Positions 18,489-36,323 of a DNA stretch of 64,000 nucleotides are shown here, one piece after another. Made by a program: the position numbers and the translations under genes. The notes beneath the pieces are model-generated. The model was given only the letters and a program-made list of their open reading frames with translations, had not been told where the DNA came from and ran no database searches. Position 1 is the first letter of the stretch. The number at the start of each line of letters is the position of its first letter. Source of the stretch: Streptomyces sp. NBC_00464 (GTDB lineage: Bacteria; Actinomycetota; Actinomycetes; Streptomycetales; Streptomycetaceae); the NCBI RefSeq assembly GCF_036013915.1, contig NZ_CP107899.1, forward strand, positions 7,406,001 through 7,470,000, read 5' to 3'.

Positions 18489-18521
18489 ACCGTAGGCAAC
18501 GCCCGTTACCCGCGAATTACC
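18489..18521 (-). promoter_or_regulatory. Island promoter element driving TusA-like/S8 copy 1
   Basis: Read on the minus strand: GGTAAT-TCGCG-GGTAAC, then 10 bases, then TACGGT. The two 6-mers are 11 bp apart, and TACGGT fits a -10 (TANNNT). The same arrangement occurs at 18577, 29030 and 33267. Confidence 0.7.
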
Positions 18522-18576
18522 GCTCGGAGCGGCACCTCAGCACCGGGTACGGCCTTGACGCCGGGCACTTGGTCAT

Positions 18577-18609
18577 GGCAACGCCCGGGTAACGGGTGTG
18601 GTCTAGCGT
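18577..18609 (+). promoter_or_regulatory. Island promoter element driving the TrmB/LuxR-like regulator 1
   Basis: GGCAAC-GCCCG-GGTAAC, then 10 bases, then TAGCGT (-10). It lies 43 bases before the regulator start and divergent from the element at 18489-18521. Confidence 0.68.
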
Positions 18610-18651
18610 CCGCTGCCCGAGGAGAAACACGGCAGGGAACCGGGGTGGGAG

Positions 18652-19662
18652 ATGCGGCGCGCACGACGCCGGAGCAAGGAGACCTCAGATGTCGGACTCG
18701 CAGCCCTGGGGGTGACCATGGCCGACGAGGAGCTCTACCGGCACCTGCTGCGCTCCGGCCCGGCGTCCGTCGAGGAGCTGGCCGATGCGCTGCTGGAGCC
18801 GCACGCGGAAGTGGCGCGGCAGACCGAGGCGTTGGCTGCACTGCAGCTGGTTGCCCTGACCGCCGGCGAGCCTGAGCGGTGGGTGGCCGCGGCTCCCGAC
18901 GTGGCGGTCGAGCGGCTCATGGAGTGCCGCCAGCGGGAGCTGAACCGGGCCCGCAGTGGTCTGGCCCGGCTCATGGGCGAGTACAGGTCGGGCCACCGGA
19001 CGGGTGCGGTGGAAGGTCCGGTCGAGGTGGTCGAGGGCGCGGAGCGATGCAGGCGCCGGTACGCGGAGACCGTGGCGAACACCGCCCGCGAACTCCTCGT
19101 GCTCAGCAGACCGCCGTTCGTCATCCACGGTGGTGTCTCCCTCGATGTCCTGAGCATTCTCGACCGGAACGTCCGCTGCCGGTCGATCTACGACCGGCGC
19201 GCCCTGGACCTGCCGCACTCGGTCGCCGACATAAGTTCCTACCAGGCCGCGGGCGAGCAGGTACGCGTCGTCGACGAACTCCCCTTGAAGCTGCTGATCT
19301 CGGACCGGACGACGGCGCTTCTCCCCGGCGGCGACGACCGGCCCGGCGAGTGGTTCGTGGTCTCCGGCAGCACGCTCGTGGAAGGTCTGGTGTCGTTGTT
19401 CGAGCTGCTGTGGGAACGCAGCGTCCCGCTCGTCCCGGTGGAGGCCGAGACCGACGTGACGGAGGCCGGACTGCCGTCGTCCGACATCCAACTGCTCGGC
19501 CTGCTGTTCGCCGGGCTCACGGACGCGGCGATCGCCCGCCAGCTCAGTACGAGCGTGCGCACCGTGCAGCGCCGCCTGACCCGCCTGATGGAGCGTGCGG
19601 GGGTGGGGAACCGCGCACAGCTCGCCTGGCACGCGGCGCGCGGCGGGTGGCTCACCCCTTAG
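18652..19662 (+). CDS. TrmB/LuxR-type transcriptional regulator 1
   Basis: 336-aa cytoplasmic regulator. The N-terminal winged helix resembles TrmB (LAALGVTMADEELYRHLLRSGP, then SVEELADALLEP). A middle domain has the RSIYDRRAL...LPLKLLISD pattern, and there is a C-terminal LuxR-type HTH (QLLGLLFAGLTDAAIARQLS, TSVRTVQRRLTRLMERAG). It is a paralogue of the gene at 35163-36173, with the same length and plan. The ATG at 18652 keeps the conserved LAALGV start; the ATG at 18718 would cut into it. It is divergent from the TusA/S8 pair, sharing a promoter region with two copies of the repeat element. Probably controls that protease and is itself in the regulon. Confidence 0.85.
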   Translation: MRRARRRSKETSDVGLAALGVTMADEELYRHLLRSGPASVEELADALLEPHAEVARQTEALAALQLVALTAGEPERWVAAAPDVAVERLMECRQRELNRARSGLARLMGEYRSGHRTGAVEGPVEVVEGAERCRRRYAETVANTARELLVLSRPPFVIHGGVSLDVLSILDRNVRCRSIYDRRALDLPHSVADISSYQAAGEQVRVVDELPLKLLISDRTTALLPGGDDRPGEWFVVSGSTLVEGLVSLFELLWERSVPLVPVEAETDVTEAGLPSSDIQLLGLLFAGLTDAAIARQLSTSVRTVQRRLTRLMERAGVGNRAQLAWHAARGGWLTP

Positions 19663-19753
19663 AAGCCACCTCCGCCATGAACGACAGCTACCGAACCAGC
19701 CAAATGAGCCGTCTTCCAAGGCCCTGCCCTGGGGGTGTTCGGGAGGTCGTGGG

Positions 19754-20218
19754 TCAGCCGGTCGGCTGTTGCGGACTGTCGGGATCACCGGCCGAGTTGT
19801 AGCGGAGCAGGTGCGTGGCGAAGAGGGCGAGGTCCTCGGCCGTCCAGTCCGCGAGCCGCTCCTGGTAGGCGGCGCGTCGGCTGGCCTGGGTCGAGGCGAG
19901 TGCCTGGGTGCCGGACTCGGTGGGATGAAGCACCTGGATGCGGTGATCGCCCGGATCCGCATGGCGCTCGACCAGGCCCAGTTTCTCCAGGGTGCCGAGC
20001 TGCCGGCTGACAGTGGACTTGTCGAGCATGTAGTGCGCCGCCAGATCCGTGGCGCGGCAGCCGTGCTGGTCGTCGATGTGCGCCAGCAAGGTGTACGACA
20101 CCAGGGGCAGCTCGGGATGGAGCCTGGCCGCGGCGGCGCGCGCCCTGCGGGCGAAGGCGGTCAGTTCGCGCTGGATGACGTCCAGCGACTCTTCGCGTTC
20201 TCCGGGGGTGCCTGGCAT
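19754..20218 (-). CDS. MarR family transcriptional regulator
   Basis: 154-aa winged-helix repressor. The recognition-helix region is CRATDLAAHYMLDKSTVSRQ and the wing is LVERHADPGDHRIQVLHPT, with the DxR motif seen as DHR. It is divergent from the membrane protein at 20306. A perfect palindrome lies in the 87-base gap, the classic MarR arrangement of autorepression plus control of a neighbouring transport gene. Confidence 0.9.
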   Translation of the reverse strand: MPGTPGEREESLDVIQRELTAFARRARAAAARLHPELPLVSYTLLAHIDDQHGCRATDLAAHYMLDKSTVSRQLGTLEKLGLVERHADPGDHRIQVLHPTESGTQALASTQASRRAAYQERLADWTAEDLALFATHLLRYNSAGDPDSPQQPTG

Positions 20219-20239
20219 GCGTCGCCTTCCTCGAGTTCA

Positions 20240-20254
20240 GTTGTATAGTACAAC
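20240..20254. promoter_or_regulatory. Palindromic MarR operator
   Basis: GTTGTA-TAG-TACAAC, a perfect 6-bp inverted repeat in the gap between the divergent MarR and membrane-protein genes. A partial second copy, GTTGTAAAAGCCAAC, follows at 20264-20278. Confidence 0.75.
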
Positions 20255-20305
20255 GGAATGTGAGTTGTAAAAGCCAACCATCTGTCGATCGTCTGGAGAG
20301 TTCCG

Positions 20306-21388
20306 ATGTCCACAGGCCCGAGCACCGCTGCCGGCTCCACTTCCGCCGCCCTGCGTCATGTGCTGAGCCACCTCGTCACGCCACTGCTGATGTGTGTGGG
20401 CATGGGGCTCGCCTACCTCGGGGCGTTCCACGCCCCGGAACCGCACGATCTGCGGGTGGACGTGGTCGGCTCGGGACCGAGTGCGCAGGTGCTGGCGCAG
20501 ACCCTCCAGGACAAGGGGCACGGAGCGCTGAGCGTCCGTACGGTCGCGGACCGGGCCGCGGCGGTCGACCACCTGAGGACGCAGGACAGCTACGGCGCCT
20601 ATGTGCCGGGCCGGAGCCCCGAACTGCTGGTGGCCACGGCGTCCTCCGACACCAGCGCGACCGTGGTGGAGAAGGTCTTCACAGAGGTGGCGGCGGGACA
20701 GGGCGCTCCGCTGAAGGTCACGGACACGGCACCCACCGCGGACGGTGACCCGACCGGGCAGGGGATCTTCTTCCTGCTCGTCGCGGTGAGCATCGGCTCG
20801 TACGCCTCCGTCGCCGTGATCGGCGGAGCCGGCGGGGTGCTGCCCCTGCGGATCCGGGCGGCGCTGGCCGTTGCCGCCTCGCTGGTGGTGAGCGTGATCG
20901 GGGCGGTGTTCGCCGGCCCGCTCTTCGGCCTCGTCGATCACGGGCTCGGGGGGCTGTGGGCGATGGCGTGGCTCTACGCGGCAGGCATTCTGCTGATCGG
21001 TGTCGGGCTGCACACCTTCCTCAAGCGGTGGACCACGCTCGGCGTCATGGTGTTGTTCGTCATGCTGAACTTCACCAGCTCCGGCGGCATCTTCCGGCCC
21101 GAGATGCAGCCGGGGTTCTTCGGCGCGCTGCACGCGTTCTGGAACGGAGCGGGCTTCGTCGAAGGTGTTCGCAGTCATGTGTACTTCGGCGGGCACGCGC
21201 TCGGCGGACATCTGCTGGTGCTCGCCCTCTGGTTCGTGGCCGGCATCGTGGCGATGGCGCTGGCGGGTCTGGCCGAGCGGAAGCGGCGGGGCGCCGGGAC
21301 GGTCGCCGCGCCGTCGGCGGGAGAACTGCTTGGGGTACAGGCCGGCGCGGAGACAGAAGAGGAGATCGAGGAGGCGGTGGCCGTCTGA
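20306..21388 (+). CDS. ABC-2/YhgE-like membrane protein
   Basis: 360-aa membrane protein. One N-terminal helix (LVTPLLMCVGMGLAYLGAF) is followed by an outside domain of about 120 residues and five C-terminal helices starting at GIFFLLVAVSIGSYASVAVI. This is the plan of DUF3533/YhgE-type ABC-2 permease-like proteins, often efflux or secretion related. It is divergently transcribed from a MarR repressor, suggesting induction by a small hydrophobic compound. No ATPase is adjacent. It appears unrelated to the protease genes on either side. Confidence 0.7.
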   Translation: MSTGPSTAAGSTSAALRHVLSHLVTPLLMCVGMGLAYLGAFHAPEPHDLRVDVVGSGPSAQVLAQTLQDKGHGALSVRTVADRAAAVDHLRTQDSYGAYVPGRSPELLVATASSDTSATVVEKVFTEVAAGQGAPLKVTDTAPTADGDPTGQGIFFLLVAVSIGSYASVAVIGGAGGVLPLRIRAALAVAASLVVSVIGAVFAGPLFGLVDHGLGGLWAMAWLYAAGILLIGVGLHTFLKRWTTLGVMVLFVMLNFTSSGGIFRPEMQPGFFGALHAFWNGAGFVEGVRSHVYFGGHALGGHLLVLALWFVAGIVAMALAGLAERKRRGAGTVAAPSAGELLGVQAGAETEEEIEEAVAV

Positions 21389-21582
21389 TGCGGCCGCCTG
21401 CCCGAGTCGTCTGACGAGGCCGTCCAACCAGGGCCTTGGCCGGGCCGGACGGTGGGGTTCTCGGCCTGGTCGGGATGCGGGGCGGGCGTTGCCCCCAGGC
21501 GTCCCGGTCGGTTGTTCAGTTGTCCCCGGGGCCAGACGGATATCGGCGGACGGCGGCACCGTCATCGGCAGTTGATGCTGGA

Positions 21583-21989
21583 TCGATTTGCTCACCGAGC
21601 GAACCGGTCTGCCCCTGTCCGTCGCAATCCCGGGGGCCAGCCTGCACGACAGCCAGGCTCTGATCCCGCTGGTGCAAGGATTACCTCCGATCCGCTCGCG
21701 CCGCGGACCGCGGTGCCGCAAGCCCGCAAAGCTCCACGCGGACCAGGGCTACGAGTGCTCCTGCCTGCGGCGATGGTTACGTCAGCGTGGCATTCCGCAA
21801 CGCATCGCACCCAAGGGAATCGAGCTGTCACAGCGACTGGGACGCCACCGCTGTACCGTCGAACGCACCATGTCGTGGCTCGCCGGCTGTCGCCGTCTCC
21901 GCCGCCGCTACGAGCGCAAAGCCAAGCACTTCCTCGCCTTCCCAAGCATCGCCTGCACCCTCATCTGCTACCGCAGACTCCCCAAATGA
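21583..21989 (+). pseudogene. IS5-family transposase, C-terminal fragment
   Basis: About 134 residues of the C-terminal half of an IS5-type transposase: LLTERTGLPLSVAIPGASLH, then DSQALIPLV, a mid-domain LHADQGYE and the ending GRHRCTVERTMSWLAGCRRL with the catalytic Glu. The N-terminal half, including the first Asp, is missing and no flanking inverted repeats were found. It is an old, immobile remnant that marks past insertion between the MarR pair and the protease genes. Confidence 0.85.
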
Positions 21990-22007
21990 GATGGACCCGT
22001 CACGCGA

Positions 22008-22043
22008 GAGGGCCGTCGCCCGCATCAGCGGGCGACGGCCCTC
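22008..22043. terminator. 16-bp perfect hairpin, bidirectional terminator
   Basis: Arms GAGGGCCGTCGCCCGC and GCGGGCGACGGCCCTC with loop ATCA lie between the IS5 fragment and the convergent protease, followed by CCTTTC. Confidence 0.8.
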
Positions 22044-22075
22044 CCTTTCACCGTGCGTCGCGGGTTCACGCACGA

Positions 22076-22113
22076 GGGCCGGACTCCGGTGTACTTCACC
22101 GTGAGTCCGGCCC
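22076..22113 (-). terminator. Hairpin after S8 copy 2
   Basis: GGGCCGGACTC-CGGTG...CACCG-T-GAGTCCGGCCC: 16 paired bases with a single bulge and a 5-base loop, 50 bases after the protease stop. Confidence 0.75.
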
Positions 22114-22162
22114 CGTTCACGGCCGCGCGTTGCCGCCGGCCGGCCCCGGCGTTCTGTTCACG

Positions 22163-25100
22163 TCACTTCGCGACGCGCACCGCGTTGATGACGGTCTGCT
22201 CGATGCGACTGCCCGCGGCGTTCTCCCCCTTCACGCGGAGGGAGACCGAAGCGGCCCCCTTCGGAGCCCTCAGCTGCACTGCCGCCGCCCGTGAGGTCGT
22301 CTGCGAGGCCGCGCGGTGCCAGGTCTTCCCACCGTCGTACGAGACCTCGACCGACGCGGACCTGAGCGGCGACCGCGAACCGTCGCCGCTGCGGAAGGAG
22401 ACGGTGAGCTTGTGTGCCGCCAGTGGCTTGACCGAGCTGTCGAGCGCTACTCCCCGGAGGTCGTAGTCGGCGTGGAGCAGGGGAAGCGTGTGCCAGTCGA
22501 CGCCCTCCGGTTGCGCGGAGTCGAAGGTCCACGCGGTGTGCGTCTCCGTGCTGGTCTGCCACCACGCCTGGGTCCGCTTCGCGTCGAGCTCGAAACGGTA
22601 CCGGGACTTCTGCGCCGGCAGTCCGGTGATCGTCGCGAACGGGTAGGGCGCGGTACCGATCAGCGTACCGTCGCGGTAGACGCGGAACTCGTCCACATCG
22701 CCCTCCGCCATGGAGCTGCCCTCGTAGAAGTGCCCGTCCGGCGAGGCCCACACCGGGATCTGGACGACCATCTCCTCACTGTTCCGCGACGGCGTCATGC
22801 CGGTCCCGGGGGCGTAGACGTCGACGGGCGACGTCGGACGTTGTACCGGCTTGAACCACTCCTCCGAAACCTCCTTGCCCGGTGTGTACGGCCGCAGCAT
22901 GGAGACCATGGAGGCGCCGTTGCCCGGCAGGACGAGGCGCTGCCACTTGGCGTTGTCGGTGTTCACGTACACGTGCTGCGTCGTGCCGAACGCCATGTCG
23001 GCGAACGCCCCCGCACCGCGCTGCGAGACGGTGCTGTATCCGAGCCAGCCGTCCTGGTTGTTGCGGATGTCGTCGGGGTTCGCGGCCGGCGAGTAGGTCT
23101 TGACCGCGATGTCGGCGAACGTGCGCCGGTCGGGGTCGAAGGTCTGGTCGGCGGCGATGCCGTCGTCCTCACCGCGCACCAGACCGTAGAGGTACGACGG
23201 GTTCTTCTCGACGGTGAGCTGGACACGGACCGGGCCCCGAGTGAGGGCCTGGGCCAGCAGGTCGCCCCGGCTCTTCGGGACGCCGAAGACGGGCACCGGG
23301 GCGGGGATCGAACCAGGGAGGCGTTCGTCGGCCGAGTTGACCACCATGATCGCGGCGGCGCCGGCCTCGACCAGGTGCGGCAGGACCGTGTACACGTCGG
23401 CGGTCCGCCGCACCATCGCCAGCTTGCCCTTGACGTCGACGGCCGCGAGCTCGGCGGCCGATCCGGTGCCTACGTCGGCGACGGTCAGGCGGCGCTTGCC
23501 GTCGAAGCGGCCCGAGAAGCTGAACGACTCGGCCTGCAGGTCCATGTCGTCGCGCAACTGCGCCTTGGCGATGATCGGAGGGCTCTGCAGGATCCAGTTG
23601 ACGTTCGTCCCGAACGTGCCGTCCTTGGGCTTGGCGCTCGGCAGGGCCCACTGGTGGCCACCGGCGCGGCCGAGCACGAAGGTGGAGGAGGCGCCGGTGG
23701 ACTGCTCTTCGGACCGGCGGCCCACGGAGAGGATCAGGCTGCGCAGTTCGCTGCGCTGGGGTGTCTCCGCCTTGATGGGTCGGGCTTTGCGGCCGTCGGC
23801 GGAGACGGCGACGTCCTGCTCGCCCACCTCGATGTCGGGAATCCCGAAAGTGACGAAGTCGCTGTCCTTACGGAGGTGGCCGAAGATCGTGTATCGCCCC
23901 GGCTTGACGTGTGCCGTGGCCACACCGTCGGCTCCCACCCGAAGGAACGCCGGCGGGCCCGAGTTGGTGAGATCGCGCAGCGTGACGACGCTGGCGCCGG
24001 TCGCGGGAGTTCCGTCAGGCATCAGCCCTGTCAGCGTCACCTTCACCGTGGGCTGTTCGCGGTTCAGCGCCACGGTCGCGTGTGCGGTGACGCCCTCTCC
24101 GGTCGCGGTGATGGTGCCCGTGTACGTGCCGTAGGCGGTGGCGAGGTCGGGGGTCATGGTGACGTCCACGTCGGCGCTGCCGCCTGCGGGAACGGTCACG
24201 GTCTTGGCGCCCAGGGTCAGCGCGTCGGCGTCCACGGAGCCCGAGCCCGCGTCGAGCGTGAGGTCCGACGTCAGTGCGAGGGTCACCTCCCGGTCGGCGG
24301 TGTTGTGGAACGTGACCTTGCGGGTGCTCGGGGCCGCGGAGTCATGGCCGGTGACGGTGCCGAAGGACGCGTTGGTGGCCCAGACGGTCTCGTCCAGAGC
24401 GGCCGGGATGTCGACGCGCCCCGAGCCCTCGGCGAAGGCTCCGCCCGCCAGTGTCTTCGCGCTCGACATCAACGCGCCCTTGAGGTCGGCGGCTTTCCAC
24501 TCGGGGTGGGCCTGGGCGAGGATGGCGGCGGCTCCGGCCACGTGCGGGGTGGCCATCGACGTACCGCTGGCGGTGGTGTACCGGTCGCTGACGGGCGTAC
24601 CCATGGTGGTTCCGGCCGCCCGCGCCGCGACGATGTCGACTCCGGGGGCTGCGATGTCGGGCTTGAGTGCGTTGTCCCCGAAGCGCGGGCCCCGGCTGGA
24701 GAACGAGGCGAGCTGGTCCTGCTTGTCGACGGCGGCGACGGTCAGCGCCGCATCGGCGGAGCCGGGCGATCCGATCGTGGTCTGGTCGGGGCCGGTGTTG
24801 CCGGCCGCGATCACGAACAGCGTGCCCGTCTCGGCGGTGAGCTCGTCCACGGCGGCACTGAGCGGATCGGTGCCGTCGGAGGGCTCGTCGGAGCCCAGGC
24901 TCATGCTGACGACCCTGGCGCCGCTGTGCGCGGCCCACTCCATGCCGGCGAGGACCATTGAGTCGGTGCCCGACCCCTTGTCGTTCAGGACCTTTCCGAC
25001 GAGCAGCTCCGCACCCGGCGCGACGCCCTTTTCCTTTCCTTCGGAGGCGGCTCCCGAGCCGATGATCGTGGACGCGACGTGTGTGCCGTGACCGTGGTGG

Positions 25101-25873
25101 TCGACCGCGTCGTCGGCGTCGCTGAAGTTTCGGGCCTCGCTGACCCGTCCTGCCAGGTCGGGATGGGTCTGGTCCACCCCGGTGTCCAGCACGGCGACCT
25201 TGACCCCGGTGCCGTCCTTGCCCGCCGCCCAGGCCTCGGGAGCGCCGATCTGCGCAACGCTGTCGGCCAGGGTGGCCTTCACCTTGCCGTCCAGCCAGAC
25301 CTTCTCGACGCCGGTGGCAAGCTTCTTGGCCGAGGCGCCCTTCTGCTTCGACCGCAGCCCGGACCAGAACGTACCGGTGTGGCCCGGTGCGACGTGTGTC
25401 GCGGCCGACTTCAGCGCGCGCAGCTTGTGCACCTTCCCGGCACCCTGCGGGAGCGGCACGTCCGCTGTGCTGCCCTGGACGATCAGCGGCAGTTCGGCGC
25501 CGTTGTCGTAGCCCTGCGCGATCAGCGCGTCGATGTCGAACAGGCGGGGGTCGAGGCTTCCGGCGTCGAGGAGCGGGCGCACCTCGTCGGGGATCACGGT
25601 GATCTGGTTACCGGTCTGGTCGATGCGCGCGATGCCGTCGGGGCTGTCCGCGTCGGGCTTGAAGGACACGATCTGTTCGGCGCCGGTGCCGGTGACCACG
25701 ACGGTGTCACCGGTGATGAGACGGACGGTGTGGATGGCCGTCGACGTCGAGGGGCTCAGGGCGCTCACCCCGGGTTCTCGCGCAGAGTCGGCTCCGAGGG
25801 CGGCGGGCGCCGTGGTGCCTATCAGCGCGGCGAGCGCGACGGCTGTCGATGCTCTGAGTATGGGTCGGTGCAT
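22163..25873 (-). CDS. Secreted S8 subtilisin-family peptidase, copy 2
   Basis: 1236-aa secreted protease. The signal peptide is RASTAVALAALIGTTAPAAL, and the propeptide strand is HTVRLITGDTVVVTG. The triad is D230 (VAVLDTG), H262 (GHGTHV) and S439 (GTSMATPHVAG). A protease-associated-type insert is suggested around VDVKGKLAMVRRTADVYTVL, and C-terminal beta domains follow. The ATG at 25873 is chosen because it has AGGAG 11 bases upstream and begins a signal peptide; upstream codons in the same frame are not signal-like. The rearranged pseudogene at 13850-14543 is its closest relative here. Its upstream region lacks the GGTAAC repeat element found at other island promoters. Confidence 0.9.
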   Translation of the reverse strand: MHRPILRASTAVALAALIGTTAPAALGADSAREPGVSALSPSTSTAIHTVRLITGDTVVVTGTGAEQIVSFKPDADSPDGIARIDQTGNQITVIPDEVRPLLDAGSLDPRLFDIDALIAQGYDNGAELPLIVQGSTADVPLPQGAGKVHKLRALKSAATHVAPGHTGTFWSGLRSKQKGASAKKLATGVEKVWLDGKVKATLADSVAQIGAPEAWAAGKDGTGVKVAVLDTGVDQTHPDLAGRVSEARNFSDADDAVDHHGHGTHVASTIIGSGAASEGKEKGVAPGAELLVGKVLNDKGSGTDSMVLAGMEWAAHSGARVVSMSLGSDEPSDGTDPLSAAVDELTAETGTLFVIAAGNTGPDQTTIGSPGSADAALTVAAVDKQDQLASFSSRGPRFGDNALKPDIAAPGVDIVAARAAGTTMGTPVSDRYTTASGTSMATPHVAGAAAILAQAHPEWKAADLKGALMSSAKTLAGGAFAEGSGRVDIPAALDETVWATNASFGTVTGHDSAAPSTRKVTFHNTADREVTLALTSDLTLDAGSGSVDADALTLGAKTVTVPAGGSADVDVTMTPDLATAYGTYTGTITATGEGVTAHATVALNREQPTVKVTLTGLMPDGTPATGASVVTLRDLTNSGPPAFLRVGADGVATAHVKPGRYTIFGHLRKDSDFVTFGIPDIEVGEQDVAVSADGRKARPIKAETPQRSELRSLILSVGRRSEEQSTGASSTFVLGRAGGHQWALPSAKPKDGTFGTNVNWILQSPPIIAKAQLRDDMDLQAESFSFSGRFDGKRRLTVADVGTGSAAELAAVDVKGKLAMVRRTADVYTVLPHLVEAGAAAIMVVNSADERLPGSIPAPVPVFGVPKSRGDLLAQALTRGPVRVQLTVEKNPSYLYGLVRGEDDGIAADQTFDPDRRTFADIAVKTYSPAANPDDIRNNQDGWLGYSTVSQRGAGAFADMAFGTTQHVYVNTDNAKWQRLVLPGNGASMVSMLRPYTPGKEVSEEWFKPVQRPTSPVDVYAPGTGMTPSRNSEEMVVQIPVWASPDGHFYEGSSMAEGDVDEFRVYRDGTLIGTAPYPFATITGLPAQKSRYRFELDAKRTQAWWQTSTETHTAWTFDSAQPEGVDWHTLPLLHADYDLRGVALDSSVKPLAAHKLTVSFRSGDGSRSPLRSASVEVSYDGGKTWHRAASQTTSRAAAVQLRAPKGAASVSLRVKGENAAGSRIEQTVINAVRVAK

Positions 25874-26318
25874 GGCAGTGATGTCTCCTGTAGGAAAGAG
25901 TGGCCGGGGCCGCACACCCACTGCGGGGCACGGCCTCGGACGGTCGTCGGGAAGCGAATCGCTCACGCCTGTGGGTCGGGCGAGGTCATGCAGGTGAATG
26001 CGCGGTGCGGTTCGCCGTGCGCACGCACGTGGCGAGGGCCGCTCAACGACCCCGGATCGCAGCCGATGTGGCGGCTGATCCGGGAGGAACGGTTCCAGTT
26101 CGGCGCCGCTCCGTACAGACATTCCGCTGGCACGTCGGCGTCAGTGACCTCAACACGCCACCTGATGCGCTTCTGCTCAGGTCCACGGGCTCTCGCGTCC
26201 CGGCGGCTACCCGCGAACCCTGCGTACTGGCGACAGCGAGGGTTCTCAGCATCATTCGGCCGCCGGCTGGGATGTACGGCCGTGGGCCAGGCCTGTGGAG
26301 TCCACGGCCGCGGTGTCG
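25874..26318. other. Intergenic region, no gene seen
   Basis: This 445-base stretch between S8 copy 2 and the M4 gene holds the leader and promoter of S8 copy 2. Open frames here lack ribosome sites and protein-like composition. A 9-bp stem with a 16-base loop (26277-26310, CGGCCGTGG/CCACGGCCG) just past the M4 stop may be its terminator. Confidence 0.6.
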
Positions 26319-28994
26319 TCAGCAGCGGGTGCGGTGGACGTCCCGGGTCACCAGGCTGGTGTCGCCGAACGTCGAGTCGAGCCATAGGACCCGTCGGCCC
26401 TCACCCAGGACCGGTGCCTCCTGCGCGCCGGGGTTGCAGCTCACCGGTTCGGCGGTCCCGCCCTTGACCGGCATGATCCACAGATTGGGCAGCATGTCCT
26501 CGGTGGCGGTGTCCGAGGTGTAGTAGCCGCGGTAGTCGCTGTAGACCAGCCACTTGTCGTTCACCGTGATCTGGGGTGCGAAGGGGGTGTCGGGAGTGCC
26601 CTGGGGGACGAGCACCCGGTCGTCACCGCCGTCGGCATCGGCGCTGCGGAGCTGGAGGTCCTCGTCGAAGTCCGTCTCCGACCAGACGACCCGGGTGCCG
26701 TTGGTGTCCACCTGCACCGCGTATGCCATCGGGTTGCCGGAGGGGTCCTTGCCCGCGGGCAGGATCGTGCGGCGGTCGGTGGCCAGGTCGTACGTCGCTG
26801 CGTTGCGGCCGTTGAAGGAGCCCGCCACGTGGATGTAGGCGATCGTGTCGCCGGAGATCCGGGGGAAGTAGCCCTGGACCCTCTGATCAGGAGTGAGGTT
26901 GGTGACCGGCGCGTCGCCGGACTTCACGAACAGGTCGTTGTGGTCGCCCGTTCCGCCCAGGGGTTCGTCCCCGCTCCACACGAACGTGTCACCGGAGACA
27001 TCGGCGTTGCCCTGCATGCCGCCACCGGGGTGCAGGGCGGTGACCGTACCGCCGTCGAACGAGCCGCGGACGACATCGGCGTTCACCCAGTACGGGTTGA
27101 CCCGGGTCAGCCGGGTCCACACCACGGTGTCGCCGCTGATCCGCGGAGCGGTGTTGCCGATGACGCCGTTCACCGTCCTGGACCCCGTGATGGGCTCCGA
27201 GATGACCCGGGTCCGTGTGCTGCCCAGGGTGCCGACCCTGATCTGCGGGTCACCCGTGACGGGGTCCGTCTCACCGATCACCCAACGCTTGCCGTCCACG
27301 TCCGGGGCGCCGCTCGCCTGTACGCCGCTCAGCACGGTCCGGGAGTCGTGCGGCAGGCGCTGCTGCCAGGACCTGGTGATGCCGTGAGCGTCGAATGCCT
27401 TTAATATGGAGACGAGTTCACGCTGACTCGAGCCGAGGGACCGGGCCGCGTCGAGGACCGCCAGCCGGCCCGCGTAGAAGTCGGTGAACGGGGTGAAGTA
27501 CTGGGTGAGCGCGGTGTAGATGATCTTGTCGGCGGTCTTCGGGTCGAGCTTCTCCCTGATGTCCCACAGGGCTCCGGAGAAGATGGTCGAGTTGAGGTGC
27601 ACTCCGCCGTTGTCCACATCGGGCGGCAGCGACAGGTAGTCGCGCTCGGCCCTGCGGCCGTCGTTCATGTCGCGCAGCGCGCACTCCTGCGGGGAGGTCC
27701 CCGGGCAGAGGTCCTCTCCCAGGAGTCCGGCGGCCGGATCGCCCATGGGGGTACGGGAGTCGGTGACGTCGATGGCGTTTCCGAAGTAGTCGGAGACGGC
27801 CTCGTTGATGGCGCCGGACTGCTGGAGGTAGATCAGTCCTCCGGAGTGATCGGTGACGCCGTGGGTCATCTCGTGGCCCACGACGTCGAGGTCCGCGGCG
27901 AAGGACCGTCCGTTGGACGACCGGCCGTAGACCATCTTCGTGCCGTCCCAGAAGGCGTTGTCGAACGGGCGGCCCCCGTAGGTGACGTCGACGACCGAGC
28001 TCATGGAGCCGCCCTTGCCGTCGATGCCGTCGCGGCCGAGGGAACGGTAGAAGTCGTACACCTGGCCCGCGCCCCAGTGGGCGTCCACCGCACCGGAGTC
28101 GGTGTTCGTGCCGTCGAAGTGTGCGGCGCCCGAGAGGGCGAGCTTGGCATCGGAGGGCATCGTGCCCTGGTACTTGGCGATGCTTGCCCCCGCCGCGTCG
28201 TAAGTGAGGATCTCGCCGCCCCGACCGGCCCACATGGGCTTGGAACGGTCGCGCAGCTCATACCCGCTGTCCGTGTCGTACACCGCGAGGGGCTTGGTCA
28301 CGCCCTGCTGGTCCACACCGGTGCCGTCGGCCGGGCCCGCCTGCTGAAGATTGTCGTAGCCGAGCGCGAGGGTGCCGTGGTGAGCGTCCAGGTACACCTC
28401 GCGGCGGCTGGGCTTGCCTGCCGGAGTCAGCCCGGTGACGGTCAGGTGGTAGGCGAGCGTGCCGGTTCCGTCGGGAAGGACCACGAGCCCGTGTCCCTCG
28501 GTCTCGCGCGTGCCGTCCGTGTACGGGGTGGTGTCCACGAACGGGAGGAGGCTGATGGCCGCCTGCTCGGTGAAGGCCGGTTCGGTGTCCACGGTCAGAT
28601 CGGTGAAGAGCGATCCGGCGGCGCTGGTGACGCCCGACGTGTCCGCGTGCACGAGATACGTGCCGCCGAGCACAGGAACACCGTGGTGGCGCTGGATGAA
28701 ACGGACGGTCGTGGTGTCTCCGGCCACGGACGTTCCCGCGGCGGCGAGGCCGAGGCCACGTGCGTGGTACACGTCCTCATGGTCGGCAAGATGCCGACGG
28801 GCCCGCTCCTGCGGGGAGGCAGAGGCGGTCGGGGTCTCGCCTTCCAGACCCGTGACGTGGGTGGGCGTACGGGAGTTCAGACCGGCGATGATGTCCGGCG
28901 GTGGCTCGTCGGCTGCGGCAGAGATACCCCCGAATGCGAGGGGCACAGCGAATGCGGCGGCCATACCGGCACCGGCAAGGCGTCTGAGACGCAT
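26319..28994 (-). CDS. Secreted M4 (thermolysin-family) metallopeptidase
   Basis: 891-aa secreted zinc protease. The signal peptide (GMAAAFAVPLAFGGISAAA) is followed by an FTP/PepSY-type propeptide (about 45-200). In the catalytic domain HEMTH gives H374, E375 and H378. The third ligand E398 lies in GAINEAVSDYFG, exactly 24 residues after the first His as in thermolysin. The C-terminal 350 residues contain repeats such as GDTVVWTRLT, GDTFVWSGDE and GDTIAYIHVA, consistent with a TolB-like beta-propeller, an addition absent from classic thermolysins. The start follows GGAGGCCGAAAAGCC. The promoter carries the island repeat element at 29030-29062. Confidence 0.92.
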   Translation of the reverse strand: MRLRRLAGAGMAAAFAVPLAFGGISAAADEPPPDIIAGLNSRTPTHVTGLEGETPTASASPQERARRHLADHEDVYHARGLGLAAAGTSVAGDTTTVRFIQRHHGVPVLGGTYLVHADTSGVTSAAGSLFTDLTVDTEPAFTEQAAISLLPFVDTTPYTDGTRETEGHGLVVLPDGTGTLAYHLTVTGLTPAGKPSRREVYLDAHHGTLALGYDNLQQAGPADGTGVDQQGVTKPLAVYDTDSGYELRDRSKPMWAGRGGEILTYDAAGASIAKYQGTMPSDAKLALSGAAHFDGTNTDSGAVDAHWGAGQVYDFYRSLGRDGIDGKGGSMSSVVDVTYGGRPFDNAFWDGTKMVYGRSSNGRSFAADLDVVGHEMTHGVTDHSGGLIYLQQSGAINEAVSDYFGNAIDVTDSRTPMGDPAAGLLGEDLCPGTSPQECALRDMNDGRRAERDYLSLPPDVDNGGVHLNSTIFSGALWDIREKLDPKTADKIIYTALTQYFTPFTDFYAGRLAVLDAARSLGSSQRELVSILKAFDAHGITRSWQQRLPHDSRTVLSGVQASGAPDVDGKRWVIGETDPVTGDPQIRVGTLGSTRTRVISEPITGSRTVNGVIGNTAPRISGDTVVWTRLTRVNPYWVNADVVRGSFDGGTVTALHPGGGMQGNADVSGDTFVWSGDEPLGGTGDHNDLFVKSGDAPVTNLTPDQRVQGYFPRISGDTIAYIHVAGSFNGRNAATYDLATDRRTILPAGKDPSGNPMAYAVQVDTNGTRVVWSETDFDEDLQLRSADADGGDDRVLVPQGTPDTPFAPQITVNDKWLVYSDYRGYYTSDTATEDMLPNLWIMPVKGGTAEPVSCNPGAQEAPVLGEGRRVLWLDSTFGDTSLVTRDVHRTRC

Positions 28995-29029
28995 GGCTTT
29001 TCGGCCTCCAGGTCGGGAACAGTTGCCGC

Positions 29030-29062
29030 ACGTTAGGCAGCCGCCGTTACCCGGCGATTACC
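29030..29062 (-). promoter_or_regulatory. Island promoter element driving the M4 protease
   Basis: Minus strand: GGTAAT-CGCCG-GGTAAC, then 10 bases, then TAACGT (-10). It lies 36 bases before the start codon, giving a leader of about 30 nt. Confidence 0.72.
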
Positions 29063-29162
29063 AGCGCCGCTCCATGGAGGCCGACGAAAGGAGGGGGCGG
29101 GCCGTCGCTCGATCCGTGCCCCTGGAGCGTCGCGTCCGCCGCAGGCACTCTGATCCGCCCGC

Positions 29163-29199
29163 GCCGACGCTCGGCTGGAAGCCCCAGCCGAGCGTCGGC
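29163..29199 (-). terminator. 16-bp perfect hairpin after S8 copy 3
   Basis: GCCGACGCTCGGCTGG / CCAGCCGAGCGTCGGC with a 5-base loop, about 100 bases beyond the protease stop at 29297 and upstream of the M4 promoter. Confidence 0.8.
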
Positions 29200-29296
29200 A
29201 CAAGCTGTTCGCGGCCTGATCAGCGTAAACACGTGTTGCGACAACCCCTGGGAACCGTCCTTCGGCGGAGAGACGGTGCCGTTTGTGCCAGCAGGG

Positions 29297-32200
29297 TCAG
29301 TCCAGGGCGTACGCCCGCTTGATGGTCTGCGTCGTGCGGTTGCCCGCGTCGTCCCACACCTCGACGCGCAGGGCCACGAATCCGTTGGTCTCCGCACGAC
29401 TCGGGTGGCGGACGCTCACGCGGTGGCTCCCGTCGTCGCCGACCCGCACGTCGGCGTCACGCCAGGTGGCGCCGTCGTCGTAGGAGACGGAGACCTTGGC
29501 ACCGGTGATGTCCTTGTCCCCGGTGTATCCGGCCTGGCGGGAGGTGGTGAGTGTGAATCCGAACCGCTTGCCCGCCTCAGCCCGGTTGAACACGTCCACC
29601 GGCACGTCGAAGCCGGTGAGGATCACCGGCAGGGTCGAGCAGTCCGTCGGAGCCCCGTACGCGGCGCGGCACTCCTCGGACTGGACACCCTTCGGCGCGG
29701 CCGAGCGGAACGTCCAGGCCGTCTTCTGCTCCGTGCCGAGCCGGACGCCCGAGCCCAGGGCCCGGGTGACGTCGTACTCCATCCGGTAGCTGGCTTCCTC
29801 GGGAACGAGCAGCTCCGCGAGGTTGTCGATCTTTGTGTCGTTGCGGTAGTAGCGAGCCGTCATCGCCGTCGCGCCGTACATCCCCCAGTGCGATGACTCG
29901 GAGTCTCCGGCAGTCGTGTAGGCGAAGGTGATCCGCTCCGGGGTGCGGCAGAACGCGCACGGCGTGAGCTGCGGCGTCGCGGCGTGCACGGGCCCGCGGT
30001 ACCAGTCCCGCTCGCGATTCTGACCGGCCTTGAAGGAGGCGACGGGCTCGCGCATCTCGGTGCCCGGCCGACCGGAGTTGACGGACTGCTGGTACGTCAT
30101 GCCGGGCGCGTACACGTAGTCCTGCCGGGTGGCGGGGGCGTTCAGGTAGGCCTTGGTGCGGAAGGCATAACCGCCCCACGGGTGCCAGGCGCTCATCGTC
30201 TCGTTGGCGAGGCGTGGTTCGAGGTCGCTGTAGAAGTGGTTCTCCGTGACGGCGTACTGCTTCCTGTAGGTGGTCATGACGGGCTTTGCGGGCAGGGCGC
30301 CCTGGAAGGCAAGCGGGACGAGGTAGGTGAAGCGGCTCTCGGCACGCGTGGCCACCTCCACCGTGACGGGCCTGCGGGCCAGTTCGCGCAGCAACTGCCG
30401 GCTGGAGGCCCGGGTGGTCGCGAAGACGGGGATCCTGCGGCCCTCGGTGTCCGTGATCGCCCCGGAACCCGGTTCGGTACGGGCGATCAGCACACCGGCC
30501 GCACCCTTGGCCACCGCCGTGTCGACGAGCTTCGACACGTCGACGGCCATGGTGGTGACCACGGCCAGCCGGCCGCGTACATCGCGTCCGGAGTATTCGG
30601 CGTCCGAACCGCCGCCTACCGGGACCGACTTGAGGTGGTGTGAGGTGTCCTTCCGCATGCCCAGCGCCGGCGTCACGATGTTCAGGCGGTCCGAGCCCGG
30701 CAGGTCCGCCTCGGCGGTGACGAGTGGGTCACGGAGGCCGGTGTCCCGGCCGAAGGTGAGCGTGCCCGTCTCGGCCGTCGACTCCGACGGGATGACGCCT
30801 TCGGTGACGACCCGGTCTCCGGCGAGGCCGTAGCTGGTCAGCGAGCCGACGAAGTTCCCCGGACGGGTACGCGTCAGCGACGTCGAGTACCAGGAGTCGG
30901 CCGTCGGCCGCTTCTCGTCGGCCACATGCGCCCTCACATCGGCCGCCTTGCGGGCGTCGATGCTGAACTCCATGTCCTTGGCCAGGTCGATTTCGGGCTC
31001 GGCGTAGAAGTCGGAGGCGGACTCCGTGCCGTTCACGTCCGTACGGAGCCGGGCGATCACCGAGTAGCGGCCCTTGGGAACGGTGACGGAGTACGAGTCC
31101 TGGTTCTGCAGAGTCGCGCTGCGGAACACGACGTCGTCCGTGACCATGTCGAACACCTGGATCGTCGCCAGCGCGGGCGCCTTGCCGTTGCGGTCGGCCA
31201 GGTGCACCGTGACATCCGCCTGCGGGGCCCACCTGATGTAGCCGACCGCCGTGACGAGTCGGACGCCGTCGGCGGTGGCGTGCACGAAGCCACTGTGGTA
31301 GCTGAAAGCCCCGAGGAACTGGTCGACGGAGAGCGTCACATCGGCGGCACCGTGCGCGGGCACGGTGACGGTGCCGGAGGAGAGGCGGACCTCGTCCTCG
31401 ACCGTGTCGACACCGCGGTCCATGTCGAGCCCGAGCGAGAGTGTGACGTCCTTGTCGCCGATGTTGGTGTAGGTGAGGGTGCGGTTGAGGGGATCCGTCG
31501 GCGTGTCGGAGGCGATGAACGTCCCGAAGTCGGCCTTGGCGCTGGCGAAGACCGTCGACCTGATGCCGTTGGTGAGGTCGACGCGGCCCGCGCCCTCTTC
31601 GAAGGGGGTGACCACGGGGAGGTTCTTCGCGGTGCTGGCCAGGGCGTTCTTGAGCTGCTCGCCGGTCATGTCCGGGTGCTTCTGCGCCATGAGCGCGGCG
31701 GCGCCCGCGACATGCGGGGTCGCCATCGAGGTGCCGCTGAGCGTCGTGTAGTGGTCGTCGACCGGCGTGCCCAGGGTGGTACCGGCGGCGCGCGCGGCGA
31801 CGATGTCGACGCCCGGCGCGGAGATCTCGGGCTTCAGCGACCCGCCGCTGTTGCCGGGCCCCCGGCTGGAGAAGTACGCCATCTTGTCGTCGCGGTCGAC
31901 GGCGCCGACGGTCAGCGCCTTGGCTGCCAGGCCGGGTGATCTGACTGTGCCGGCAGCGGGTCCGGCGTTGCCGGCGGCGATGACGAACAGCGTGCCGTAC
32001 TGCGCGCTGAGCCGGTTGACGGCCTGGCTCAGGACGTCGTTGGGGGTGCCGTCGCCGCCGAGGCTCATGCTGACGATGTCGGCACCCTGTGCCGCGGCCC
32101 ACTCCATACCGGCGAGCACCCACGAGTCCTCACCGGAACCGACGTTGCTGAGGACCTTTCCGACGAGCAGGTCGGCGCCGGGCGCGACACCCTTGCGCAG

Positions 32201-33085
32201 TCCGCCGGACGCGGCACCCGAGCCGACGATGGTCGACGCGACGTGCGTGCCGTGCCCCTGCTTGTCAGTGACGGTCTCGGTCGGTACGAAGCTCTCCGAG
32301 GCAGAGATCCTGCCTGCCAGGTCGGGGTGGTCGAGGTCGGCCCCGGTGTCGAGGACGGCGACCTTCACACCCTTGCCGTCGTACCCGGCGGCCCATGCGT
32401 CGGGTGCGCCTATCTGCGGCACGCTCTTCTCGAGGAGCGGCTTGACCTGCTGGTCGAGCCACACCTTCTTGATTTCGCGGGCGGCTTTCGCGGGCTGGTC
32501 GCCGCCGGTACCGAGTGCGTCGAAGAACTCGTCCGTGTCCTTCTTGCCGAGAGTGGTGGCCGCCGCGGCGATGGACGTGAGGGGACGTGCGCTCGCGTCG
32601 GCGAGCGTCTCGGTCCGCGTGTCGAGCGTGCGGGCGGACGGCTTGTCCTTGTAACTGACGATGACGGGGATGGTGGCGCGGTGGGCGTCGTCGTATCCGG
32701 CGGCTATCAGCCCCGTGACGTTGAAGAGTTCACGGTCGAGCTTGCCGGAGGCGATGCCGCCCAGTGCGCTGTCCGGGTAGACGTACACGTCGCCGTCGGG
32801 CGTCGTCTCACTCTGGAACGACGTGGCCTGCCGGTCCCCGGGGGCGGCCGTCACCGACGTACGGCCGCCCGCCGTGGTGACGTTGACGGTGTCGCCGGTG
32901 AGCAGGGTGACGGCGGCCGTGGTCGACCTGGCGGCAGTGGAGGGACTTCGGTCCGTTCCGTAGGCATGCCCCGCGGGCTCGGCCGCGGCGGGTGTCACCG
33001 GGCTGATCGCCGAGACCGCGATCGTTGCGGCGACTGCGGCACTGCCGAGCGCCGCGCGCACCGGTCTTCTACGTGTTGGTCGCAT
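29297..33085 (-). CDS. Secreted S8 subtilisin-family peptidase, copy 3
   Basis: 1262-aa secreted protease with a basic N-terminus (MRPTRRRPVRAAL) and signal helix, then a propeptide strand TAAVTLLTGDTVNVT. The triad is D246 (VAVLDTG), H278 (GHGTHV) and S453 (GTSMATPHVAG). A mid segment (AVVTTMAVDVSKLVDTAVAK) resembles a PA-type insert, and several beta domains follow. It is divergent from a SARP-type regulator gene 252 bases away. No GGTAAC repeat reads in its own direction, so its control by the shared element is not shown. Confidence 0.9.
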   Translation of the reverse strand: MRPTRRRPVRAALGSAAVAATIAVSAISPVTPAAAEPAGHAYGTDRSPSTAARSTTAAVTLLTGDTVNVTTAGGRTSVTAAPGDRQATSFQSETTPDGDVYVYPDSALGGIASGKLDRELFNVTGLIAAGYDDAHRATIPVIVSYKDKPSARTLDTRTETLADASARPLTSIAAAATTLGKKDTDEFFDALGTGGDQPAKAAREIKKVWLDQQVKPLLEKSVPQIGAPDAWAAGYDGKGVKVAVLDTGADLDHPDLAGRISASESFVPTETVTDKQGHGTHVASTIVGSGAASGGLRKGVAPGADLLVGKVLSNVGSGEDSWVLAGMEWAAAQGADIVSMSLGGDGTPNDVLSQAVNRLSAQYGTLFVIAAGNAGPAAGTVRSPGLAAKALTVGAVDRDDKMAYFSSRGPGNSGGSLKPEISAPGVDIVAARAAGTTLGTPVDDHYTTLSGTSMATPHVAGAAALMAQKHPDMTGEQLKNALASTAKNLPVVTPFEEGAGRVDLTNGIRSTVFASAKADFGTFIASDTPTDPLNRTLTYTNIGDKDVTLSLGLDMDRGVDTVEDEVRLSSGTVTVPAHGAADVTLSVDQFLGAFSYHSGFVHATADGVRLVTAVGYIRWAPQADVTVHLADRNGKAPALATIQVFDMVTDDVVFRSATLQNQDSYSVTVPKGRYSVIARLRTDVNGTESASDFYAEPEIDLAKDMEFSIDARKAADVRAHVADEKRPTADSWYSTSLTRTRPGNFVGSLTSYGLAGDRVVTEGVIPSESTAETGTLTFGRDTGLRDPLVTAEADLPGSDRLNIVTPALGMRKDTSHHLKSVPVGGGSDAEYSGRDVRGRLAVVTTMAVDVSKLVDTAVAKGAAGVLIARTEPGSGAITDTEGRRIPVFATTRASSRQLLRELARRPVTVEVATRAESRFTYLVPLAFQGALPAKPVMTTYRKQYAVTENHFYSDLEPRLANETMSAWHPWGGYAFRTKAYLNAPATRQDYVYAPGMTYQQSVNSGRPGTEMREPVASFKAGQNRERDWYRGPVHAATPQLTPCAFCRTPERITFAYTTAGDSESSHWGMYGATAMTARYYRNDTKIDNLAELLVPEEASYRMEYDVTRALGSGVRLGTEQKTAWTFRSAAPKGVQSEECRAAYGAPTDCSTLPVILTGFDVPVDVFNRAEAGKRFGFTLTTSRQAGYTGDKDITGAKVSVSYDDGATWRDADVRVGDDGSHRVSVRHPSRAETNGFVALRVEVWDDAGNRTTQTIKRAYALD

Positions 33086-33266
33086 GATGAGGTTGTCTCC
33101 GGTTCAGTTGCAGTCGGGACCAGGATGCTTGCGGATGTCACGGCCACTGGCGACAGATCCGAGTGGCCGGGTTGTGCCAATGACGCAAGTGCGCCGTGCT
33201 GCTCGAGTCCCGAAGTGGCACGCGGGGTGCGACTGCTCGCGCGGGAGGGCCCGGGTGCCGCACTCG

Positions 33267-33299
33267 GGTAATGACGGGGTAACGCGGGCTTCGTACCGT
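33267..33299 (+). promoter_or_regulatory. Island promoter element driving SARP regulator 1
   Basis: GGTAAT-GACGG-GGTAAC, then 10 bases, then TACCGT (-10), 38 bases before the GTG start. If the regulator binds here it controls itself. Confidence 0.72.
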
Positions 33300-33337: not shown

Positions 33338-35260
33338 GTGGAATCGGCGGAAGCACCCGTTGTCACCGTCCGCGTTCTCGGCGGATTCCGGGTCGAGTGC
33401 CAGGGACGGGAACTGCATCCCGACCGGTGGGTGCGGCTCAGTTCGCGACGCCTGCTGAAAGCCATGGCGCTCGCCGAGGGGACTCGCATGCACCGGACGC
33501 GGCTGGCCGCGATGCTGTGGCCCGGTGCCGCACCCCGAGCCGCGGCCGGAAGTCTCCGCGTGGCGCTGCACGCCGTACGCCGCACGCTGGAGCCGGAACT
33601 GACGGAGGGCAGACGTTCGGCCTACGTCCTGTCGCACCGGGACGGGTCGGTCTCCCTCGCCGAAGGCCGCGTGGAGGTCGATCTCGGGTCCGCCCTCGCG
33701 ATCGCCTCGGAGGCGCCGCAGCATGCGGCCCGCGCTCTCCTGGCCGAGGTGCTCCCCGACGACGGGCACGAACCCTTCGTCCTGGCGGCCCGTCGTGCCC
33801 ACGCCGAGCTGCGGCGCAGGACGGCTCTGGCCTGTGCCGCCCGGCTGCCGGAACGCGAGCTGATCCGCCTCCTGAGGGACGTGCTCCTCATTGATCCGCT
33901 CGCGGGAGAGGTGTGCCAGACGCTCCTCGACCGCCTGATCGCGGCGGAGCGCCCCGGAGAGGCGGTGCGCCAGTACCACACGTATCGCGGGGCTCTGCTC
34001 GACGCCTGCGGCATGGAGCCCGACCCGCCCTTGCGGGAACTGTTCGCACAGGCCCAGGCCGCGTCCACTGCCCTGCCGCCGCCCCGCGAGGAGGTCCGCC
34101 GGACTCCCCTGGTCGGTCGTGACGCCGAGCTGGCCTTCCTGACGAGGCCGCCGGGCCCCGGCGCTTCCCGGGTCGTCGCGGTCACCGGTGAACCCGGTAT
34201 CGGGCTGACCCGCCTCCTCGATGAGACCGCCTCACATCTGAGGCGGGGAAAGGCCGTCCACGTCCTGCGCGCGAACCCCGCGGACGGGCCCGCGGACGGG
34301 CCGTTCGCCGCGGTCCTCGCTGCCGTCGACGCCGGTGTGGCACGGCTGACCCCAGGGGCACGCACCGCCCTGGCTGCGGCACACCCCGGCGCGGCGGCCG
34401 TTCTGCCGGCCTTGGACGGAGCCATGGGCCGGGCAACACCCGGAACAGCCTCGGACATTCACGCGCTGGTCGGGACGCTGGCCCGCCGTCTCCCTGTTGT
34501 GTGGCTCCTCGACGACCTTCACCAGGCCTCCGCGCCCGCCCTGCGGATGATGGGGAACCTGATCCGTAGGGCGGCCGGACTTCCCGTCCGGTTCGTGTTC
34601 TCCCACCGGTTCGCCGGACTGCGGCCACCGCGGGTGCTGGCGGCCGCGCACCCCCTCGTCCTGCGCAGACTCACCCGCGACCAGTGCGTCCTGATGGCCC
34701 GTGACCCGGCCGGAGGACACGTCATGTATCTCGCTTCCCGGGGAAACCCGTTGTGCGCGGTGGAGCCGGGGCGTGTGCGGCAGCGGCTGGCACGTGAACC
34801 GGCCGCGGTGGTCGAGGTCGTCGACAGGCTGTCGGCGCATTCCGACGGCCTTTCCTACGTAGCTCTGGTGCGGGAGATCGAGCCGGGCCGGAGAACCGGC
34901 TTCCTGCAGGGCCTCGAGCAGGCTCTCCGTACGGGATGGGTGGTCGCTGGACGGGGAGCGGCCGGCCCGCACTACGAGGTCGCCCTGCCCGCCGCGCGAG
35001 CGGTGACCGAACCGACGAGGGACGAACGGCCCGAAGCGGAGCCTGCGCAAGGCGCGGGCTCCGAGCCCGTACCCGCGGTGGCGGAGACGGTCCGGATGCT
35101 GGTCTCGGCCCGGCCTCCTCTCCAGGCGGACGAGCCCGCCTCCCATTCCCCGCCGCGCGATGTCAGTGGCCTTCGGGCCAATGGGACCACCCTTGTCGTG
35201 CCGCGTACCAGCCCAGCTGCATACGTGTCGACGCGCCCGCCCGGTCCATCAGTGCCTTGA
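33338..35260 (+). CDS. SARP-type regulator 1 (BTAD plus degenerate NTPase)
   Basis: 640-aa regulator of the AfsR/SARP large-protein class. The N-terminal OmpR-type winged helix (VTVRVLGGFRVECQGRELH) is followed by a BTAD-type helical domain (about 95-240, EAVRQYHTYRGALLDACGMEP). An AAA-like domain then starts at LVGRDAEL. The Walker A reads GEPGIGLTRLL: the lysine is Leu290. Walker B is still recognisable as VVWLLDDLH. The C-terminus is short with no TPR array. The GTG start follows GGGGAGGAAC. The last 98 bases overlap the convergent regulator gene at 35163. A likely activator of island promoters; if it is an ATPase at all, it is probably inactive. Confidence 0.85.
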   Translation: MESAEAPVVTVRVLGGFRVECQGRELHPDRWVRLSSRRLLKAMALAEGTRMHRTRLAAMLWPGAAPRAAAGSLRVALHAVRRTLEPELTEGRRSAYVLSHRDGSVSLAEGRVEVDLGSALAIASEAPQHAARALLAEVLPDDGHEPFVLAARRAHAELRRRTALACAARLPERELIRLLRDVLLIDPLAGEVCQTLLDRLIAAERPGEAVRQYHTYRGALLDACGMEPDPPLRELFAQAQAASTALPPPREEVRRTPLVGRDAELAFLTRPPGPGASRVVAVTGEPGIGLTRLLDETASHLRRGKAVHVLRANPADGPADGPFAAVLAAVDAGVARLTPGARTALAAAHPGAAAVLPALDGAMGRATPGTASDIHALVGTLARRLPVVWLLDDLHQASAPALRMMGNLIRRAAGLPVRFVFSHRFAGLRPPRVLAAAHPLVLRRLTRDQCVLMARDPAGGHVMYLASRGNPLCAVEPGRVRQRLAREPAAVVEVVDRLSAHSDGLSYVALVREIEPGRRTGFLQGLEQALRTGWVVAGRGAAGPHYEVALPAARAVTEPTRDERPEAEPAQGAGSEPVPAVAETVRMLVSARPPLQADEPASHSPPRDVSGLRANGTTLVVPRTSPAAYVSTRPPGPSVP

Positions 35261-36278: not shown

Positions 36279-36323
36279 ACCAAGGTGGCCCCCTGCCTGT
36301 CGTCAGGCATCGAGCGGGTGGTT

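Follow-up and report, generated by a model that had tools for sequence, protein, structure and literature searches.

What controls the proteases clustered in a 64,000-nucleotide stretch of the Streptomyces sp. NBC_00464 genome (contig NZ_CP107899.1, positions 7,406,001 to 7,470,000; this whole stretch is called the window) is the question raised by this locus. A sequence-only reading of the window had proposed that four promoters in this protease island share the element GGYAAY-N5-GGTAAC-N10-TANNNT, that its two repeats of 11-bp period beside a -10 are bound by SARP activators, and that the genes behind it form a self-controlled secreted-protease regulon. The analyses reported here favor, with a probability of about 0.72, the interpretation that this box serves a protease regulon as both operator and core promoter, and that large activators of the SARP-STAND type, SARP2 and probably also SARP1, bind it. 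The sequence of the box, its spacing, placement and conservation, and its co-occurrence with SARP2 were observed directly; an AfsR-like fold of SARP2 was predicted by modeling.

All four spaced sites were present as described. The strict motif matched four times in the window and in none of 100 dinucleotide shuffles; across the whole genome (8,961,255 bases) it gave four matches, all in the island, and its reversed control gave none (15 matches versus one control match with up to two mismatches). Twenty-eight sites outside the window, including orthologues of the island sites and two weak sites, were used to build a position matrix, which scored the four at 28 to 41 bits; the highest score in 15 Markov-shuffled windows was 7.2. 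The pair of AGTAAC repeats lacking a -10 that had been noted before SARP2 was also found. Genomes other than this one (G000) are given by G numbers or by name.

18489..18521, minus strand: box 5′ of the gene for a small TusA-like protein and of the subtilase gene S8-1, GTAAT-N6-GTAAC-N10-TACGGT; kept in G065
18577..18609, plus strand: box 5′ of regulator 1, with the weakest first repeat, GCAAC (hexamer GGCAAC)
29030..29062, minus strand: box 5′ of the M4 protease gene, found by the strict pattern and the matrix
33267..33299, plus strand: box 5′ of SARP1, found by the strict pattern; also at SARP1 homologues in G065, G248, G275 and NBC_01669
36262..36278, plus strand: AGTAAC pair between the divergent genes for regulator 2 and SARP2, without TANNNT at N10

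Counted from listed starts and predicted -10s, the putative -10 elements end 35 to 60 nucleotides 5′ of the start codons, and CGT recurs at the -10 end. The 11-bp repeat period was seen in 4/4 window sites and in all 18 close S8 copies of the genus survey described below. The box is a direct repeat with no dyad, its 19-base consensus giving at most six self-complement matches over eight offsets. The two repeats, the N10 interval and the TANNNT of the proposed motif held, and the leading G of the hexamer proved not to be general: the base before the second GTAAC is G in island-type sites and A in 18/18 close S8 sites. The conserved core is GTAAY-N6-GTAAC-N10-TANNNT. Conservation in relatives was borne out, the box being kept at orthologues of S8-1 (G065, G204 and Streptomyces sp. 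NBC_01669), regulator 1 (G065, 93%, with GCAAC and GTAAT; G204, 70%) and at homologues of SARP1. The repeat pair before SARP2 also occurs in G065 and NBC_01669, there with TACACA at N10. In the available portion of PMC10936776, SARP operators are direct repeats of 11-bp period whose 3′ repeat lies 8 bp from the -10, and that of PMC5930380 describes each repeat as a heptamer plus a 4-nt spacer. GTAACNN-N8-TANNNT, which holds at the four window sites and the 18 close S8 sites, fits both rules, with the heptamer length taken from PMC5930380 and the -10s predicted.

With one mismatch allowed, the core matched nine sites in this genome versus no control site. GTAAY-N6-GTAAC pairs numbered ten, with TANNNT at N10 in six and absent in four. 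Three exact matches to the core lie outside the island, at 0.73, 3.22 and 4.41 Mb, each before an S8 gene. The products of these genes share a common N-terminal type and, compared with the first of them, are 76-100% alike; the two that were scanned against Pfam matched Peptidase_S8 (E 1.3e-46 and 1.4e-43), and the third is the 76% match to the first. Matches were thus not at background, the strict ones all falling in the island and the three additional exact relaxed ones preceding S8 genes, and the predicted regulon is wider than the island. At 0.72-0.74 Mb (L103, 719-739 kb) a second protease island brings together a TrmB/LuxR relative and an M4 relative with a SARP2 paralogue, a box and a close S8 gene. 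No protease was matched at the one-mismatch sites 4413514 and 7932381.

The latter of these sites (L013, 7932381-7932412, minus strand), GTAATGCCCGAGTAACGG, is near-identical to the S8 boxes with TACAAC replacing TANNNT, and no protease was matched in its 3-kb locus. The second island continues at 742-752 kb with three distant S8 genes that lie within 9 kb and have no upstream box.

Genus scans covered 199 genomes for the box pattern, SARP2 and S8 proteins, and 295 genomes for SARP1 and regulator 1. The exact relaxed pattern gave 28 sites in 18 of the 199 genomes, and the control gave 0 in all 199. Sorted by downstream gene, 18 precede close S8 genes (14 genomes), 4 are island-type (3 here, 1 in G065) and 3 lie before urease genes; of the remaining 3, one lies before a GntR-type gene (Pfam), one before the gene for a small protein in G171, and one, in G180, is unassigned. 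When the 487 N-terminal residues of an unlinked close S8 protein were used as query, 46 S8 matches were returned in 33/199 genomes. An exact box was present at 18/18 close S8 copies (69-100% identity, query included; 14 genomes) and at none of the 28 distant ones (39-53%), all of which were examined. The first 16 distant genes had no site at up to three mismatches; 10 of the other 12 had none, and for one, in this genome, a 3-mismatch site lay inside a gene. Information per column at the close S8 sites was 2.0 bits in both repeats, 1.66 bits in the -10 and 0.35 bits in the upstream 60 bases; the repeat columns coincide with the search pattern, but the 18 copies include every close S8 gene found. 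The tally of TANNNT offsets peaked at 10 (26/31 pairs), in loci mostly chosen for that spacing.

The urease sites of G120 and G121 (L024, L034 and L040) read GTAAC-N6-GTAAC-N10-TAACCT, which is GlnR-like; Urease_beta was confirmed for L040.

The two SARP-type genes of the island encode the candidate binders.

33338..35260, plus strand: SARP1, putative SARP-type N-terminus including BTAD, followed by an AAA/STAND ATPase (Pfam BTAD 7.2e-5, AAA_16 2e-11)
36285..39449, plus strand: SARP2, a candidate binder of the box, with a SARP domain (ODB+BTA), a STAND-type ATPase and TPR

SARP2 was found in 14/199 genomes at a cut of E<=1e-100 that was fixed beforehand, with up to three candidates scored per genome, and weaker SARP2-like genes may exist in the other 185. 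These 14 are identical to the 14 genomes with a box at a close S8 gene (G000, G052, G053, G059, G065, G070, G076, G095, G103, G116, G161, G162, G171 and G178). The proposal that SARPs would bind the 11-bp repeats beside the -10 is supported by this shared distribution and by the geometry in the available text of PMC10936776. An rpoB tree of 50 hand-picked genomes (17 of them positive when G204, G248 and G275 are included) gave a patchy distribution of SARP2 with six gains or losses, at least five by well-supported branches; with five to six changes, the match between SARP2 and box is therefore not one clade's inheritance. G204, which lies outside the 199 set and was picked for regulator 1, has a SARP2 orthologue with a box and S8-1 immediately behind it, and the order is the same in NBC_01669. 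A SARP2 search in named genomes yielded three loci: one in NBC_01669, a partial locus in S. poriferorum and a remote locus. Among 15 stretches of 20 kb chosen for having the box, a SARP2-type gene lay within the same stretch as S8 in 8 and not in 7; box and S8 are therefore not always neighbours of SARP2.

In its predicted fold SARP2 has the N-terminal OmpR-type DNA-binding domain and the BTA domain that define SARPs of the AfsR/EmbR type. The AF2 model of its N-terminus (pLDDT 92) had AfsR and EmbR as best solved matches, and this region is predicted to fold like the AfsR SARP domain. SARP1 matched BTAD at 23.6 bits (cut-off 22.1) and Trans_reg_C weakly (E 0.007, below cut-off), and had no sequence match among solved structures at E<=1. 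Its N-terminal part can be aligned to those of SARP2-type proteins at about 32-43%, and the third-helix stretches are alike (SARP1, LRVALHAVRRTLEPEL; SARP2, LRVTLHAARHALEPEL). Homologues of SARP1 (E<=1e-60) occur in 4/295 genomes including this one, plus NBC_01669, and GGTAAT-N5-GGTAAY-N10-TANNNT lies upstream in 5/5 (this genome, G065, G248, G275 and NBC_01669); the four from other genomes are 39-61% identical over aligned stretches. Self-control is supported for SARP1 by this kept box, and SARP2 has the repeat pair only, without TANNNT. The self-controlled regulon first proposed is supported for SARP1 and requires amendment in its extent, in the SARP2 promoter and in two protease genes of the island that have no box, S8-2 and S8-3. 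The remaining genes are as follows.

14782..18342, minus strand: S8-1, subtilase (Pfam PF00082, E 1.5e-62); the listed GTG start at 18342 is uncertain and overlaps the TusA-like frame
18096..18428, minus strand: small TusA-like protein, encoded by the first gene behind the box; open frame, ATG at 18428; the label "TusA-like" is that of the sequence-only reading
18652..19662, plus strand: regulator 1, TrmB-type N-terminus and LuxR/GerE C-terminus (Pfam)
22163..26122, minus strand: S8-2, subtilase, 3′ of M4 on the same strand (Pfam)
26319..28994, minus strand: M4 (thermolysin-type) metalloprotease (Pfam PF01447/PF02868)
29297..33085, minus strand: S8-3, subtilase (Pfam)
35163..36173, minus strand: regulator 2, TrmB-type with a weak LuxR-like C-terminus (Pfam TrmB 3.6e-9; partial PedR match in NCBIfam, below cut-off)

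Secretion of the S8 and M4 proteins is predicted from their N-termini. The TusA-like protein had no Pfam match at 1e-3. A mismatch-tolerant scan found no box belonging to S8-2, which is perhaps read from the M4 promoter as an operon, and the box is absent on the strand of S8-3. Beside S8-1, at 13850-14215 (minus strand), two short S8-2-like stretches (79% over 43 aa and 57% over 88 aa) look like a protease gene remnant. A 664-aa protein encoded at 39850-41844 (minus strand) is 71-74% conserved beside protease genes in G204; it had no Pfam match at 1e-3, and no box was found upstream at up to four mismatches.

Several observations weigh against control of the box by the SARPs. S8-2 and S8-3 have no box. 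SARP2 and close S8 genes are often adjoining, and their co-occurrence is therefore partly shared inheritance. Most SARP2-type genes have no box themselves: when 13 homologue loci with 1.5-kb flanks were scanned at up to three mismatches, 9/13 had nothing. The other four were this genome, with only the exact S8 box downstream; G065, with the repeat pair upstream at two mismatches; a second G065 copy, with a 2-mismatch site about 400 bases 5′ of the aligned start; and G053, with a 3-mismatch site 1.4 kb off. Four further SARP2-homologue stretches (G052, G076, G070 and G000) had no site. In G079, a genome without SARP2, a distant S8 gene is preceded at about 370 bases by a 2-mismatch site. By sequence, SARP2 matched neither a solved structure at E<=1e-3 nor, by itself, Trans_reg_C at E<=0.1. 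Finally, GTnAC-n6-GTnAC is the consensus given for S. venezuelae GlnR and S. coelicolor AfsQ1 in the portions seen of PMC3087709 and PMC6988585, and in this genome an amino-acid permease gene and a molybdopterin oxidoreductase gene each have a GlnR-like site, GTNAC-N6-GAAAC-N10-TANNNT, in front of them.

The last two points lead to the main alternative, that the box is a site for GlnR or AfsQ1, OmpR-type response regulators, in which case nitrogen or glutamate status would switch the proteases through a universal regulator and SARP2 would be a mere neighbour. Measured against the GlnR/AfsQ1 core, the second repeats fit, and the first repeats of the close S8 boxes, GTAAT, are one base off. That 3/28 genus sites precede urease genes is in its favor, and a nitrogen-scavenging role for proteases is plausible. 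The permease and oxidoreductase sites (L042 and L043, at 6553464 and 7510926; the oxidoreductase is perhaps a nitrate reductase) are probably GlnR promoters, and N10 spacing is therefore not unique to SARPs. Even so, we consider this explanation unlikely. GlnR is described as the global nitrogen regulator of actinomycetes, yet the S8 box is confined to the 14 SARP2 genomes of 199 (the glnR and afsQ1 genes themselves were not searched), and a third-base A and a second repeat GTAAC are invariant in the 18 close S8 copies, unlike the sites in the part of PMC3087709 available. SARP control is favored because the S8 box follows SARP2 and not the genus, and it was this that turned an initial working reading of GlnR, AfsQ1 or MtrA, based on the shared core. 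Dual control by SARP and GlnR/AfsQ1 is possible. In the text seen of PMC13189361, the 7-bp MtrA site has T1 and C4 fixed, and MtrA is still a possible binder. CutR was dropped as a candidate; its site is TAWATAAA in the excerpt of PMC12802291.

Binding by the TrmB/LuxR regulators, regulator 1 or 2, had been offered as the alternative in the sequence-only reading and was weakened by the survey. Regulator 1 and S8-1 share an intergenic region in which both promoters have the box, and relatives lie near S8 and M4 genes in G161, in G065 and at other places in this genome (L093, L097 and L103). The regulator 1 family is found in 221/295 genomes (E<=1e-30), however, far more widely than the S8 box (14/199), and the box is an 11-bp direct repeat and not a dyad; 11-bp direct repeats beside a -10 are typical of OmpR and SARP domains. 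This explanation is accordingly judged improbable. Even less credence is given to an ECF-type sigma factor reading part of the motif, with GGTAAC as -35 and a CGT-like -10. CGT does recur at the -10 end, but every counted site has two repeats at a fixed 11-bp period, and the 13 bases from GTAAC to CGT are short for ECF promoters.

Under the favored SARP-STAND interpretation, a pair of SARP protomers (SARP2-type, and here probably SARP1 too) would sit side by side on the two 11-bp repeats at the -35 position and would hold RNA polymerase at the TANNNT -10 in the way that AfsR acts at afsS. SARP2 and SARP1 would thereby bind the box and activate transcription, with ATP binding in the STAND part possibly acting as the switch. 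Predicted targets in this genome comprise the TusA-like/S8-1 unit, regulator 1 and M4, the last perhaps together with S8-2, as well as SARP1 itself and no fewer than three unlinked S8 genes.

SARPs have been studied as antibiotic-cluster switches. These data suggest that the family probably also controls extracellular protein digestion. Homologues of the large SARP-STAND proteins were found in Streptomyces, Kitasatospora, Micromonospora and Isoptericola. A broader proposal, which we put forward tentatively and at somewhat less than even odds, is that a whole branch of these proteins are dedicated activators of secreted subtilisins and not antibiotic regulators, each recognizing its own variant of a single operator and with SARP genes inside the regulon, making secretion all-or-none and self-reinforcing. 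If true, the SARP family would extend to nutrient scavenging, a large group of uncharacterised SARP-STAND proteins would gain a readable operator, and protease output in secretion-host strains would gain a handle. No SARP/AfsR-protease regulon was reported in titles or abstract openings of the open-licence literature among the matches listed. In work on feather degradation, the portion seen of PMC7181669 ties afsR genes to development only, and PMC12763843 contained none of the four terms looked for.

The nearest known system is AfsR and the afs box of afsS in S. coelicolor. AfsR, a large SARP with NOD and TPR, resembles SARP2 in domain layout and predicted SARP fold, and the afs box likewise has two 11-bp direct repeats running from the -35 towards the -10, as far as the material available on it goes. 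The two differ in that AfsR has about 25% identity with SARP2 over the SARP domain and targets afsS, whereas the targets here would be proteases and regulators; the afs box sequence, CGTT(T/C)ATCGNN in the excerpt of PMC10972967, also differs. PimR and other SARP-LAL proteins are similarly large SARPs with further C-terminal domains and heptamer-plus-4-nt repeats (PMC5930380, in part), and PimR, as proposed here, has a regulatory gene among its targets; unlike the box binders it drives pimM in a polyene cluster, and its heptamer is CGGCAAG. The GlnR and AfsQ1 boxes share the GTnAC-n6-GTnAC core with the box described here, which is set apart from them by its fixed A, its fixed -10 spacing and a distribution that follows SARP2.

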